Origin: a bacterium
Lineage (GTDB): Bacteria > Planctomycetota > Planctomycetia > Planctomycetales > Planctomycetaceae
Assembly: GCA_016124895.1 (NCBI GenBank)
Contig: WGMU01000139.1
Span: forward strand, 1-64,000
Reading direction: 5' to 3'
DNA: 64,000 nt
The notes beneath the pieces were generated by a model, which ran no database searches, was not told where the DNA came from, and saw only the letters and a program-made list of their open reading frames with translations. Shown piece after piece: positions 3,823-9,402 of the stretch. Made by a program: the position numbers and the translations under genes. Numbering within the stretch: the first letter of the stretch is position 1; each line of letters begins with the position of its first letter.

Positions 3823-5595
3823 TTACGCCTCAGTCGGCAGGTCAGTTTTGATGTGCAGATCACGAAGCTGGTGCGTGTCGACTCGCGACGGGGCTTCCGT
3901 CATCTGGTCGGCAGCCTTCTGCGTCTTCGGGAATGCAATCACGTCGCGGATGTTGTCGTTCGCCAGGAACATCATCACCCAGCGGTCGAGCCCCAGCGCG
4001 ATGCCGGCGTGGGGCGGCGCTCCGTAACGCAGCGCGTTGAGCAGGAAGCCGAACCGCTCTTCGGCCTCTTCTTCCTTGATCCCGATGAAGTCGAAGATCT
4101 TCTGCTGCACAGCGGGATCATGAACACGGACGCTGCCGCTGGCGGCCTCGTAACCGTTGCAGACCAGGTCGTACGACTGAGCCCGCATCGAGCCCGGATC
4201 GGTGTCGAACTTGTCGAGGTCGGCGGCGTTCGGGTAGCAGAACGGGTGATGCTCAGCCTGCCAGCGATTGTCTTCCTCGCTCCAGGAATACAACGGGAAC
4301 TCGACAACCCACAGGACATTCAGCGTCCGGGGATCGTAAAGCTTCAATTCCTTCGCCAGTCGGTTCCGCAGTGCGCCGAGCGCTGCCGACGTGACCGAGC
4401 CCTTATCCGCGACAAAGAACAACAGATCGCCGTTTTCACCACCAAGCTTGTCGATGATCGCCTGCTGGTGCTCGTCCGAGAAGAACTTCGCGATCGGCGA
4501 ATCGAGCTTGCCCTCTTTGACGCGGAAGAAGGCGAGCCCCTTCGCGCCGTAGTCGCCGACCCAGGCGGTCAGTTCGTCGATCATCTTCCGCGAGTATTTC
4601 TCGGCAGCGCCTTTCGCATTAATGCCGCGAACCCGTCCGCCGTTTTCGATCGTCTTGCTGAAGACGCCGAATCCACATGCCGCCGCGATCTCGCCGCAAT
4701 CGATCAGTTCCATGCCGAATCGCATGTCCGGCTTATCCGAACCGAACCGCTCCATCGCGTCAGCATAAGTCAGTCGTGGCAATGGGAGCTGAATCTCCTC
4801 GCCGCGAATCTCTCGGACCAGGTGACCAATCAGGCCGTCGATCGTCGTGAGGATGTCTTCCTGCTCGACGAACGACATTTCGACGTCGATCTGAGTGAAC
4901 TCAGGTTGCCGGTCCGCTCGCAGGTCTTCGTCGCGGAAGCAGCGGGCGATCTGGAAGTAACGATCGAGCCCGCCGACCATCAGCAACTGTTTGTAGAGTT
5001 GCGGCGACTGCGGCAGTGCGTAAAAGCTGCCGGGATGCACGCGGCTCGGCACGAGGTAGTCGCGAGCGCCTTCGGGGGTGCTCTTGCCGAGCATCGGCGT
5101 TTCGACTTCGAGGAAGCCATTCTGATCGAAGTAGTCGCGCGTCGCCTTGCATAGCTTGTGACGCAGGATCATCGCTTCCTGAAGCTGCGGACGGCGGAGA
5201 TCGACGTAGCGGTACTTCAACCGCAACTCTTCGTTCGGCATGTTCTCGCCCGTCGGCTCGAACGGCGGCGTCTTGCTCTTGTTGAGCACCGTCAGGACAT
5301 GCGTCCGGATTTCGATCTCGCCCGTCGCGATGTTCGGATTAACGAGCCCCTCGCCACGCAGCTTGACGTGGCCGTCGACGCGGATGACGTCTTCGCTCCG
5401 CAGCGTGCCGGCGACTTTGTGAGCGTCCGGGCACTCGTTCGGGTCGAACACGATCTGAATCAGCCCGTAACGGTCACGCAGGTCGATGAAAACCAGACCG
5501 CCGTGGTCGCGGTAGCTGTCGACCCAGCCGCAGACCGAAACGTCCTGGCCAGCGTGATCTTTCGTCAGTTCGCCACAGGTGTGAGTACGGAGCAC
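3823..5595 (-). CDS. aspS: Aspartyl-tRNA synthetase
   Basis: Class II aminoacyl-tRNA synthetase that charges tRNA-Asp; 590 residues, the normal bacterial length. The N-terminal OB-fold anticodon domain begins [33 protein letters not shown]. Motif 2 is seen as [20 protein letters not shown] and motif 3 as [13 protein letters not shown]. The bacterial GAD insertion domain lies between them (about residues 280-420). The start ATG is at 5595, giving the expected family N-terminus. Divergent from leuA, with a palindromic repeat between them. Whether it is discriminating, or also charges tRNA-Asn, cannot be decided from this window; no gatCAB is present here. Confidence 0.98.
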
Positions 5596-5831: not shown

Positions 5832-5912
5832 GTTTAACGCCCAGCCGCAGGCGCCGGCCACCAGTTGGTTGCAACGTTGCTGGTCGCCGGCGTCTGCGGC
5901 TGGGCGTCAAAC
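5832..5912. repeat. Palindromic intergenic element with 33-base arms
   Basis: Arms at 5832-5864 and 5880-5912 are reverse complements with three mismatches, separated by a 15-base loop. The arm core is CGCCCAGCCGCAG. It lies between the divergent genes aspS and leuA and would fold into a long hairpin. It looks like a REP- or MITE-type element; the CCGCAGGCG core recurs in the palindrome at 54983-55072. Confidence 0.8.
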
Positions 5913-6035
5913 AAGCAGATTCTTGCGAACCCTCCCCGTCCGGCTGCTGTCCCAGGTGCCCGTGTGAGCCTTCTTGATTTCGAATCATCGCGTGGCTAAA
6001 TTCCCGTCGTCATTCAACTCAACAGGTCGACTCCG

Positions 6036-6098
6036 GTGTCTTTCAACCTGCCCAACCTGAGCCTGTCTCTACTGGAGCCCGCCTCCGGGAAGGCTTAG
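6036..6098 (+). CDS. leuL: Leucine-rich leader peptide of leuA attenuator
   Basis: Twenty sense codons read from GTG at 6036 to TAG at 6096-6098: MSFNLPNLSLSLLEPASGKA. Five of codons 5-13 are leucine. A Shine-Dalgarno-like AGGT (6024-6027) stands 8 bases upstream. The peptide lies 120 bases before the leuA start, and its stop codon sits inside the antiterminator strand of the leader RNA. The name follows the classical leuL of enterobacteria by analogy only. Too short to be proved coding from sequence alone, but its fit with the surrounding hairpins is strong. Confidence 0.72.
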   Translation: MSFNLPNLSLSLLEPASGKA

Positions 6099-6165
6099 GT
6101 TGTATTGAGTGAGCTGCGACCAGCGATCTACAAACCCTGAGGCTTCCTGGCCTCAGGGTTTTTTT
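6055..6165 (+). promoter_or_regulatory. Candidate leucine transcription attenuator upstream of leuA
   Basis: Three exclusive pairings are visible. Protector hairpin: ACCTGAGCCT (6055-6064) pairs over all 10 bases with AGGCTTAGGT (6091-6100), one pair being G-U. Antiterminator: GGAAGGCTTAGG (6088-6099) pairs with CCTGAGGCTTCC (6136-6147) at 11 of 12 positions. Terminator: 6132-6143 pairs with 6150-6161 and a run of T follows. Leucine codons of the leader peptide lie in the first strand and its stop codon in the second. This is the arrangement expected for ribosome-mediated attenuation: stalling at Leu codons frees strand 2 to block the terminator, while rapid translation lets the terminator form. 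Confidence 0.78.
6132..6165 (+). terminator. Intrinsic terminator in the leuA leader
   Basis: A perfect 12-base stem (6132-6143 with 6150-6161) with a 6-base loop, followed by a T run to 6165. It lies 53 bases before the leuA ATG, so it would cut leuA expression unless disrupted by the antiterminator. Confidence 0.88.
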
Positions 6166-6217
6166 GTTGTCCAATTCCGACCAGAACCGAATTCCTCTCC
6201 GACCCGAGGACCTCGAC

Positions 6218-7753
6218 ATGTCCAGCGAGACGATCACAATTTTCGACACAACCCTGCGTGACGGCGAGCAGTCGCCCGGTTGCAGTATGACGACTGAAGA
6301 GAAACTGGAAGTCGCCAAGGCGCTCGTCGAACTCGGCGTCGATGTGATCGAAGCCGGCTTTCCAATCGCCTCGCCCGGCGACTTCGAAGCTGTCCGGAAA
6401 ATCGCCGAACGCTTCGGTGATCAGACCGTGATCTGCGGCCTCGCCCGCTGCCGGGAAGAGGACATCACGCGGGCCGGCGAGGCGCTCAAAGGAGCCGCCA
6501 ACCGTCGCATTCACGTTTTCCTGGCCACGAGTGCGATTCATCGCGAGCATAAGCTCAAGATGACCAAGGACGAGATCATCGCCCGCGCTGTCCAGGGCGT
6601 CGAACAGGCGAAGGACTACACAGACAACATCGAGTTCTCGCCCGAAGACGCCGCCCGCACCGAACTCGACTTCCTGTGCGAGGTCACGGAGAAGGCCATC
6701 GCCGCCGGCGCAACGACGGTCAACATTCCGGACACCGTCGGTTACTCGACGCCGACGCACTTCTACAACGTGATCCGGCACCTGAAAGAGAACGTGCCGA
6801 ACATTGATCAGGCCGTGATCAGCACGCACTGCCACAACGATCTGGGCCTTGCCGTTGCAAACAGCCTCGCCGCCGTTGAAGCCGGCGCGCGTCAGATCGA
6901 ATGCACGATCAACGGTCTCGGTGAACGAGCCGGCAACGCGTCGCTCGAAGAAGTCGTCATGGCGCTGCGCACGCGGAAAGACCATTACGGCATCGACACG
7001 AAAATCAACACGCAGAAGCTGTTCCCGACCAGCCGTCTTGTTTCGCGAATCACCGGGATGACGGTGCAGCGGAACAAAGCGATCGTTGGCCAGAACGCGT
7101 TCGCTCACGAAGCCGGCATCCACCAGCACGGAATGCTGCAGAACCGCAGCACGTACGAAATCATGCGGCCGGAAGACGTCGGTTACGTCGGCCAGAATCT
7201 CGTGCTCGGCAAACACAGCGGACGACACGCGTTTCGCGATCGCGTGCAGCATCTCGGCTTCCAGCTTGATGAGGACATGATTCAGCGCGTTTTTGAAGAG
7301 TTCATCGCACTCGCTGATAAAAAGAAGGACGTGTACGACTCAGACATCGTCGCGCTGATCGAAAGCCACATCGGCGAGAGCAAGGAGCAATGGTCGCTCG
7401 AACGCTTCCACACGCTTGCCGGAACCGACGTCCTGCCGACGGCGACCGTCGAAATGCGCCGTGAAGGCTCAGACGAAGTCATTCGCGACGCCGCCACCGG
7501 AGACGGCCCGATTGACGCCGTGTTCAAGGCACTCGAACGCGTGATTGGCCTTGAGGCGAAGCTCACCGACTATCAGGTCCGCAGCGTTTCCAGCGGCAAA
7601 GACGCGCTGGGCGAAGTCAACGTGCAGATCGAAGTGGACGGCGAGAAGTACCACGGCAAAGGCGTCAACACCGACATCGTCGCCGCCAGTGCCGCTGCCT
7701 ACCTCAAAGCTCTGAACCGAGCCGCCGCGAACAGCGAATCCGAGAATGGCTGA
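6218..7753 (+). CDS. leuA: 2-isopropylmalate synthase
   Basis: First committed enzyme of leucine synthesis: condenses acetyl-CoA with 2-oxoisovalerate; cytoplasmic. 511 residues. The HMGL-type TIM barrel opens FDTTLRDGEQSPGCSM. The metal-binding motif STHCHNDLGLAVANS and HEAGIHQHGML are both present. The C-terminal third (about residues 390-505) matches the LeuA allosteric dimer domain that binds leucine. I start at ATG 6218, preceded by CGAGGA; the frame is open back to a TTG at 6164 but that lies in the terminator tail. Control is likely double: feedback by leucine through the C-terminal domain, and attenuation in the leader. Confidence 0.97.
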   Translation: MSSETITIFDTTLRDGEQSPGCSMTTEEKLEVAKALVELGVDVIEAGFPIASPGDFEAVRKIAERFGDQTVICGLARCREEDITRAGEALKGAANRRIHVFLATSAIHREHKLKMTKDEIIARAVQGVEQAKDYTDNIEFSPEDAARTELDFLCEVTEKAIAAGATTVNIPDTVGYSTPTHFYNVIRHLKENVPNIDQAVISTHCHNDLGLAVANSLAAVEAGARQIECTINGLGERAGNASLEEVVMALRTRKDHYGIDTKINTQKLFPTSRLVSRITGMTVQRNKAIVGQNAFAHEAGIHQHGMLQNRSTYEIMRPEDVGYVGQNLVLGKHSGRHAFRDRVQHLGFQLDEDMIQRVFEEFIALADKKKDVYDSDIVALIESHIGESKEQWSLERFHTLAGTDVLPTATVEMRREGSDEVIRDAATGDGPIDAVFKALERVIGLEAKLTDYQVRSVSSGKDALGEVNVQIEVDGEKYHGKGVNTDIVAASAAAYLKALNRAAANSESENG

Positions 7754-7991: not shown

Positions 7992-9371
7992 TCAACGCGT
8001 TGTCAGCTCGAGCCACGCGGAGGCTCGCGGCAGTCGACTGAGGAAAAATCGTTCGAGCACCCAGACGAAGATCAGAGAGACGCCGACCAGCGGGAAGAAC
8101 ACGCCGAGACCGATGGTGACCACCGCGATCGCGCGAGGGATATTCCAGTTGGCTGGTAACTCCGGCACGCCGAGCTTTCCCTGCGGACGCCGCTGCCACC
8201 ACATGACGACTCCGGTCACCGACATCCAGACCGTCGCCAGCGCACCAAGCAACATCGCGACGAGGTTCACGGGGCCGAACAGTTCTCCCTGGTGCAGACG
8301 GATGCCGAGTGCAACGGCTTTCGCGGAGACCGGATGGTCGTCCCAGTTCGCCCGCGCAAGGACTTTCCCGGAGTACTGGTCGAGATAGAGGAAGTCGGAG
8401 TCCTCAAGGTTCCGCGCCCGGTTGATGAAACCGTACGTGCCTTCCTGGCCGCGCGGCAGCTTGACCGTTGATCCTTCCGCGACGCCCTGCTCAGCAGCGA
8501 TCTTCAGAGCGGCGGGCAATGTCAGCGCGATCGCGCCGTCAAGGCGTTCGGATCGATATGGAACTCGAAAGTCCGCTGCGACCGGACGAGCCTGGCCTGT
8601 CGCCTGCTGCACTCGCTTGAAAAGCCCGCCCCAGATGTTCGTCCACGGCAGACCAGTCACCAGCAGCACGATTACCACCGCAGCCGAGTACATACCGACG
8701 ACTGCGTGCAGGTCGCGCCAGAACGTTCGAGCCCCTTGCCTCATACGCGGTACGAAGACGCCCATAACGCGAAGCCCCGATCGCGGCCACCACAGATAAA
8801 GGCCCGTCATCAGCAGGATGATGGTCCAGCAGGCAGTGAGTTCGACGAATGCCGAGCCGAATGCGCCCATCATCAGCTCACCGTGTAGATTGCGAACCTG
8901 CTGCATCAGCATCTGATCGCGGACCAGCGAGCCGGTGACTTCGCCGGAATACGGATTCACATAGACCAGCAGATTCCGCCCCACCTTGTCCCGCAGTCCG
9001 ACCTCGGTCGCGTCAGTTGGATCAACGCCAACAGTGATGCTGTCCGGTTTTGATTCCGGAAACGCCTGGCGGACTGCCGCAAGCTGCTGCTCGGCAGGCA
9101 GCCGAACGTTGCCAGGTTCAACGGTCTGCAGCTCCTGATAAAGCCACGGTTCGACGACCGGTTTGAAGAGATAAATGCCACCGGTGACGCCGAGAAAAAT
9201 GCAGATCGGAACGGCCAGCAGCCCAGCGTAAAAATGCCAGCGCCACATCGCCGTGAAGAGTCTGTTCCGCGTGGGGCCGGCAACCGGTGTTATTTCGTCA
9301 GCGGATGATTTGCTGCCCGATGCCGGGGACACATTTTCCAGTTGCGACGGGACCGGTTCAGAAGGAAACAT
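7992..9371 (-). CDS. PepSY-associated transmembrane protein (iron-regulated membrane protein family)
   Basis: Integral inner-membrane protein of 459 residues in the PepSY-TM family, whose members are often linked to siderophore or iron-reductase systems. After a polar 40-residue N-terminus comes LFTAMWRWHFYAGLLAVPICIFLGVTGGIYLF, the characteristic first helix with its WRWHFYAG motif. PepSY-like extracytoplasmic segments follow near residues 65-130 and 280-330, with spans near 165-185, 215-240, 360-385 and 410-440. I prefer ATG 9371, preceded by GAAAGG at 8 bases, over GTG 9398. It lies 31 bases after the small lipoprotein gene and is probably cotranscribed with it. No TonB receptor is nearby, so a metal role is inference. 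Confidence 0.85.
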   Translation of the reverse strand: MFPSEPVPSQLENVSPASGSKSSADEITPVAGPTRNRLFTAMWRWHFYAGLLAVPICIFLGVTGGIYLFKPVVEPWLYQELQTVEPGNVRLPAEQQLAAVRQAFPESKPDSITVGVDPTDATEVGLRDKVGRNLLVYVNPYSGEVTGSLVRDQMLMQQVRNLHGELMMGAFGSAFVELTACWTIILLMTGLYLWWPRSGLRVMGVFVPRMRQGARTFWRDLHAVVGMYSAAVVIVLLVTGLPWTNIWGGLFKRVQQATGQARPVAADFRVPYRSERLDGAIALTLPAALKIAAEQGVAEGSTVKLPRGQEGTYGFINRARNLEDSDFLYLDQYSGKVLARANWDDHPVSAKAVALGIRLHQGELFGPVNLVAMLLGALATVWMSVTGVVMWWQRRPQGKLGVPELPANWNIPRAIAVVTIGLGVFFPLVGVSLIFVWVLERFFLSRLPRASAWLELTTR

Positions 9372-9402
9372 GACGAATGCCTTTCGGTCGGGAATCACCG
9401 AC

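Follow-up and report, generated by a model that had tools for sequence, protein, structure and literature searches.

A predicted leucine-responsive, ribosome-mediated attenuator upstream of leuA in Planctomycetota

Organization of the leuA leader

The window, a 64,000-nt stretch of planctomycete DNA (genome G000 in our sample), carries leuA, the gene for 2-isopropylmalate synthase, which is identified by profile matches above cut-off (NF002086, 787 bits; TIGR00973, 755 bits). Its upstream neighbor, aspS, diverges from leuA, and the terminator in the leuA leader therefore does not serve as the end of aspS. The next open reading frame of at least 250 codons beyond leuA (7992–9398) is on the opposite strand, so leuA is probably monocistronic. 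The features of the region are as follows.

3823–5595, minus strand: aspS, the upstream neighbor
5974–6002, plus strand: candidate sigma-70-type promoter, TTGATT-N17-TAAATT
6036–6098, plus strand: predicted leader peptide ORF, GTG to TAG, VSFNLPNLSLSLLEPASGKA, 20 codons, five of them for Leu
6055–6064, plus strand: strand 1, ACCTGAGCCT, within the run of Leu codons; forms the protector with strand 2
6088–6100, plus strand: strand 2, partner of either strand 1 or strand 3; contains the leader stop codon TAG (6096–6098)
6136–6147, plus strand: strand 3, CCTGAGGCTTCC; forms the antiterminator with strand 2 and the terminator with strand 4
6132–6165, plus strand: intrinsic terminator, stem 6132–6143/6150–6161 (strand 4), T run 6159–6165
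6218–7753, plus strand: leuA

The first-pass annotation of this DNA had described a 20-codon peptide with five Leu codons in nine, a ten-pair protector, an antiterminator with 11 of 12 pairs and a terminator with a T run. Re-extraction by script confirmed every one of these elements at its stated coordinates. The Leu codons fall in codons 5–13, one of the five being CTA, and the GTG start of the leader is replaced by ATG in the sister genome G001. The protector pairs 6055–6064 (ACCTGAGCCT) with 6091–6100 (AGGCTTAGGT) over 10 of 10 positions with one G-U pair (−15.7 kcal/mol), and the antiterminator pairs 6088–6099 (GGAAGGCTTAGG) with 6136–6147 (CCTGAGGCTTCC) over 11 of 12 positions with one G-G mismatch (−16.7 kcal/mol). 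The terminator stem pairs 6132–6143 (AAACCCTGAGGC) with 6150–6161 (GCCTCAGGGTTT) at all 12 positions. Strand 2 can pair with only one of its two partners at a time, and the geometry is classical, with strand 1 inside the Leu run and the TAG at 6096–6098 inside strand 2. The gap from the T run to leuA is 52 nt; the hairpin ends 56 nt before the leuA ATG and leaves the start region uncovered. That pairings of this kind would be unlikely by chance, as was also proposed, agrees with the stability of the fold: 6030–6170 has a z-score of −4.84 and 6009–6260 a z-score of −3.47, with 0 of 200 shuffles equally stable in either case, and the elements recur at leuA of nearly all scored relatives.

The candidate promoter at 5974–6002, which agrees with the consensus at 8 of 12 bases when counted by hand, would place the RNA start at about 6009. 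It is absent from the output of a general promoter scan, which does include a consensus match spanning the start of leuA (6213–6240). Among 100 genomes of the window's family, 65 have a TTGA[CTA]-N16..18-TANNNT pair no more than 80 nt ahead of the leader start, compared with 0.9% of mononucleotide shuffles.

Two side observations concern this region. In 12 of the 100 family genomes (G005, G006, G014, G033, G054, G071, G088, G096, G108, G114, G125 and G130; shuffles 0.14%), the same promoter-like pair ends so near the leader start codon that transcription would start at or next to that codon and the leader peptide would be leaderless. In the window, the interval between aspS and the leader also contains a long GC-rich inverted repeat (5838–5909, cgcccagccgcaggcgccggc ... 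gccggcgtctgcggctgggcg) with no T run after it.

Conservation, pairing and codon choice in the family

We examined the regions upstream of leuA in 106 genomes of the window's family, comprising 104 with a LeuA match plus G006 and G012. A terminator was called for a hairpin of −8 kcal/mol or lower followed by at least five T in eight, three of them in the first four, within 350 nt upstream; a leader was called for a short ORF with at least four Leu in 10 codons that ends no more than 110 nt before the terminator. By these rules a terminator is found in 104 of 106 genomes, two of these 104 being unscorable because of a contig end or N, and a leader in 100 of the 102 scored, 95 of them with at least five Leu in 10 codons. 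Dinucleotide shuffles pass the leader rule in 12.1% of cases (2.3% at five or more Leu), and reverse complements in 3 of 102. Many of the peptides resemble MxxxNLLNLSLLLxPxxxGRS, with a median length of 20 residues and a mean of 6.7 Leu; 91 start with ATG and nine with GTG, and a Shine-Dalgarno-like word precedes only 18 of the 100. Individual genomes depart from this picture. G121 has only three Leu, and G051 was scored on what is probably the wrong hairpin, yet its leader is visible. G086 passes the rule but appears to be false, its chosen hairpin probably being wrong as well. G016 has nothing within 350 nt, with a terminator-like match about 440–480 nt upstream. Across all genomes sampled, those in which no leader is seen close to leuA include G075, G430, G556, G027 and G361. 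The conserved peptide and pairing looked for in close relatives are nonetheless present: the ORF, the Leu cluster, the terminator and the mutually exclusive pairings recur across the family and the class, as does the placing of a stop codon within strand 2 or close to it.

Codon choice within the leader provides a second line of evidence. The Leu run is kept while CTA, CTG, CTT and CTC interchange. In the window's family, CTA accounts for 21.1% of 674 leader Leu codons versus 0.2% of 1314 Leu codons in leuA; 22 long ORFs of the window have 15 CTA among their 1310 Leu codons. The same bias is seen in family f5 (30.2% of 179 versus 2.7% of 1129) and, to a smaller extent, in family f3 (6.6% of 166 versus 2.0% of 1258), where the leaders are enriched in CTT instead (32.5% versus 4.8% in leuA); for f2 the comparison has no leuA background. 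The regulatory peptide of E. coli leuL likewise uses the rarest Leu codon. These observations bear on a reading in which the terminator ends a small regulatory RNA, the leuA promoter lies behind it and the ORF is incidental. A strong terminator between two genes would suit such an arrangement, as would the consensus promoter match over the leuA start (6213–6240), but aspS diverges, only 52 nt separate the T run from leuA, and an incidental ORF would not be expected to keep its Leu run through codon interchange or to be enriched in a rare codon. We consider a small RNA highly unlikely.

The pairings were evaluated in a MAFFT alignment of the 100 family leaders (98 distinct sequences), with slid pairings and row shuffles as controls. 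For the terminator, 93.7% of cells are paired (row shuffles at most 85.6%), and double changes are found at 10 of 12 pairs in 131 cells, compared with at most seven pairs and 20 cells in slid controls. The antiterminator consensus is GGTCTTAGG with CCTGAGACC or CCTGAGGCC; 85.4% of cells are paired, above slid controls (at most 66.2%) and, by a small margin, above row shuffles (maximum 83.6%). Double changes in this helix, at 7 of 9 pairs in 41 cells, do not exceed those of slid controls (up to 9 of 9 pairs and 47 cells), and this count therefore has no weight. The protector, with 74.4% of cells paired (maxima of 55.9% in slid controls and 73.6% in row shuffles, the latter again a small margin) and double changes at 8 of 9 pairs in 28 cells (slid controls up to 38 cells), is weakly supported in the alignment. 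The compensatory changes that the first-pass annotation suggested seeking in aligned leaders exceed slid controls for the terminator but not for the antiterminator or protector.

A strand-swap comparison is better sequence evidence for the 2:3 pairing than double-change counts. On average, strand 2 pairs with its own strand 3 at −16.3 kcal/mol, with strand 3 from a genome of the same family at −14.1 kcal/mol and with strand 3 from another family at −12.6 kcal/mol; its own partner beats the across-family mean in 152 of 179 cases and the within-family mean in 140 of 179. Three Phycisphaerae loci (L133, L142 and L144) illustrate joint change between classes, both strands having changed together to give a different match of 11–12 pairs (GCCGGATAGGGT with ACCCTGTCTGGC in L142, GCTGGATAGGGC with GCCCTGTCCAGC in L133), where strand 2 again contains the TAG. 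When duplexes were searched for freely, 2:3 surpassed 95% of shuffles in 62 of the 100 family genomes, but 1:2 in only 14. In 65 of these 100 genomes the best 2:3 match shares bases with the stop codon, and in 81 the two are no more than 6 nt apart. The free search preferred another register for strand 3 (6080–6090) over the named 2:3 helix in G000, and chose other registers in Gemmata-like genomes as well; for this reason fixed-column counts were added, and 13 Gemmataceae-like genomes were checked by hand.

Taken together with the layout in the window, these data indicate that the leuA leader is very probably a leucine-responsive, ribosome-mediated transcription attenuator. In such a mechanism, a ribosome following RNA polymerase would translate the 20-codon leader. 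When charged tRNA-Leu is scarce, it would stall on the Leu run and cover strand 1, leaving strand 2 free to join the newly made strand 3, so that no terminator forms and the polymerase enters leuA. When leucine is ample, the ribosome would reach the TAG and cover strand 2, allowing the 3:4 terminator to form and transcription to stop near 6165. If the leader were not translated, 1:2 and 3:4 would both form and transcription would end.

Masked folding, assuming a ribosome footprint extending 14 nt ahead and with strand 4 not yet made, gives states consistent with this scheme. The 1:2 pairing is predicted at 0.98 with no ribosome, and 2:3 at 0.89–0.90 with a ribosome stalled at any of the five Leu codons; with the ribosome at the stop codon 2:3 is at 0 and 1:2 does not form either. 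In the finished RNA 3:4 dominates in every ribosome state (0.94–0.97), so the switch must act kinetically.

Leaders bound by tRNA (T-box), protein or metabolites also switch terminators ahead of amino acid genes. In the window, no match to an Rfam family attains the gathering score, and none of the ten sub-threshold matches (E ≤ 10) is to an amino acid leader or a T-box; at 11 related loci only tRNAs attain it. The leader of ∼155 nt, from the probable RNA start to the end of the stem, is moreover explained by the ORF and the four strands, and a ligand-bound leader is scarcely credible here.

The attenuator-like arrangement is specific to leuA among the genes compared. At control genes in the window's genome and its relatives, the leader rule finds 0 of 14 for ilvB (17 loci, 14 located), 1 of 16 for trpE (a 17th, partial locus, L352, being left out) and 0 of 16 for hisG (17 loci, 16 located). 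The sole trpE pass, in G003, satisfies the Leu rule with a weak hairpin (−8.9). Hairpins that satisfy the terminator rule are present by themselves at 5 of 14 ilvB, 4 of 16 trpE and 8 of 16 hisG loci. At leuA loci labeled as proteobacterial, 0 of 32 scorable loci (34 in all) have a leader, and none has a terminator by the rule. A strict leader pattern has a single match in the window's genome, at leuA; across 21 genomes it matched three, once each, and is therefore uninformative on variant leaders.

Sister attenuators were sought at ilvB, trpE, hisG and cimA, and none was recognized. As a separate observation, a second HMGL-like gene of the window's genome (L002, citramalate synthase-like, cimA) has a terminator, AAACCCTCAGGCCGCCCGCCTGGGGGTTT plus a T run, about 320 nt upstream, and one arm of it resembles an arm of the leuA terminator. 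Upstream of this gene in G000, no ORF enriched in codons for Leu, Ile or Val is found.

Distribution across the phylum and Gemmata-like leaders

Outside the window's family, but within its class, we sampled 106 genomes representing 14 families, in part incompletely (33 of 71 genomes of f3, mostly the closest; 30 of 39 of f5; and 21 genomes of f2). A terminator is found by rule in 86 of the 106 genomes, from 13 families, and is missing from 20; a leader is found in 79 of the 86 scorable genomes, from 12 families, with none by rule in f90 and f94. The rule finds no terminator in nine of the 21 genomes of f2 and five of the 33 of f3; by eye, most of the former and all of the latter have a GC-rich hairpin whose T run is poor. 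At seven of nine loci labeled Phycisphaerae, the same rule gives a leader, the exceptions being L128, which has none, and L097, where it lies further upstream. Both Verrucomicrobia loci have one, with a weak 2:3 match (−7.5 and −9.6 kcal/mol). A phylum search gave 20 further loci (L046–L065, two of them from the class and one, L059, the same place as the named locus L133), with eight leader calls, of which L053 and L062 are doubtful. As predicted from these sequences, the attenuator is a common feature of leuA in the phylum, far wider than one genome.

Three loci carry labels at odds with their content. L067, L079 and L081, labeled Rhodopirellula or Candidatus Kuenenia, encode LeuA proteins 71–81% identical to that of the window, as in the window's family, and look as if their labels are wrong or their bins mixed.

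Family f3 is probably Gemmataceae and its genus g20 probably Gemmata. Squalene epoxidase, an enzyme known among planctomycetes from Gemmata, is found in six of seven g20 genomes versus none of eight others tested. We inspected by hand 13 f3 genomes (five from g20), picked for a GGCCCC-type hairpin or for having no scored terminator. All 13 have a Leu-rich ORF (4–8 Leu, the ORFs being selected for Leu density and without a shuffle control) followed by a GGCCCC...GGGGCC hairpin 21–24 nt past the stop codon, exactly 21 nt in eight. In 12 of the 13, the exception being G489, where it lies elsewhere, the best 2:3 match uses a CGGGG-type strand beginning 29–36 nt before the stop.

The Gemmataceae-like leaders (G029, G353, G332, G335, G484 and others; L248, L288 and L289) thus have their stop codon beyond strand 2, unlike the window. 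Beyond strand 2, many of these leaders encode a common type of tail rich in Arg and Ser (such as SRVG, SRFD and SRDG).

The T runs of f3 are weak (e.g. TTTCGTTTCA), and termination there is therefore less certain than in the window's family. Weak tails of this type, which are found in many Gemmataceae-like and f2 genomes, and the position of the Gemmataceae-like hairpin, which often ends just 20–40 nt before leuA, would fit a leader that is translated and conserved but whose hairpin acts post-transcriptionally, affecting either the translation of leuA or the stability of its mRNA. The stem is, however, followed by a long T run in the window and in most genomes of its family, and the G000 hairpin stops 56 nt short of the ATG with the start region free. 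Post-transcriptional action is accordingly quite unlikely, and transcription attenuation remains the preferred explanation.

Relation to known systems and implications

The enterobacterial leu attenuator (leuL) belongs to another phylum, and the present leader further differs in having no Rfam match, in preceding a leuA that is probably alone and in having its stop codon inside strand 2. Sequence comparison most likely identifies a classical attenuator of known kind, and what is new, within the open-access literature covered, is the phylum. The first-pass annotation knew of no described case in Planctomycetota, in agreement with open-access titles and abstracts, which describe no such leader for Planctomycetes, Rhodopirellula or Verrucomicrobia; the survey of Lopatovskaya et al. 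(2010) falls outside this coverage. In the main text of another attenuator survey (PMC2965389), the terms planctomyc, Rhodopirellula, leucine and leuA are all absent. A passage in PMC4833913 names Planctomycetes for leader genes that lie very near their gene.

Several known systems resemble the leader in part. PMC1262725 describes the actinobacterial LEU element, in which leuA is likewise preceded by an ORF containing consecutive Leu codons; in that element these codons form a pseudoknot by pairing with the Shine-Dalgarno box of leuA, and classical attenuation was deemed unlikely. The window shares the Leu-run ORF with this element but has, in addition, both a terminator and an antiterminator. 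When 6009–6260 is folded to minimum energy without pseudoknots, the Leu run pairs within the leader and not with the leuA start. The ilvBNC attenuator of Corynebacterium glutamicum, as excerpted from PMC11857589, combines a leader peptide with alternative hairpins at a branched-chain gene, as here, but concerns another gene and phylum, and planctomycete ilvB has no leader by our rule (0 of 14). Likewise, an excerpt of PMC5794164 describes a Leu-rich attenuator peptide for branched-chain synthesis at the ilv operon of Staphylococcus aureus; this is a Firmicute, and the likeness is one of description, not of sequence.

Attenuation needs a ribosome close behind the polymerase, and the leader would therefore be a built-in reporter of transcription–translation coupling in planctomycetes. 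For Gemmata, a spatial separation of the two processes has been proposed (Gottshall 2014, as cited in passages of PMC5394234 and PMC6212462) and, according to a passage of PMC6554331, disputed. We see even chances that leucine attenuation of this kind is an ancient trait common to Planctomycetota (Planctomycetia and Phycisphaerae), perhaps to Verrucomicrobiota too, and that it functions in Gemmata. If so, ribosomes would load on nascent RNA in Gemmata, strict separation of transcription and translation would be ruled out for at least this gene, and the Gemmata-type leaders would represent a distinct layout, in which strand 2 precedes the stop codon by ∼30 nt and the hairpin starts at a nearly fixed 21–24 nt after it. 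The leaders may thus offer a natural test of transcription–translation coupling in planctomycetes, apparent Gemmata genomes included, and would add a control element that senses leucine to the few genetic parts available for this group.
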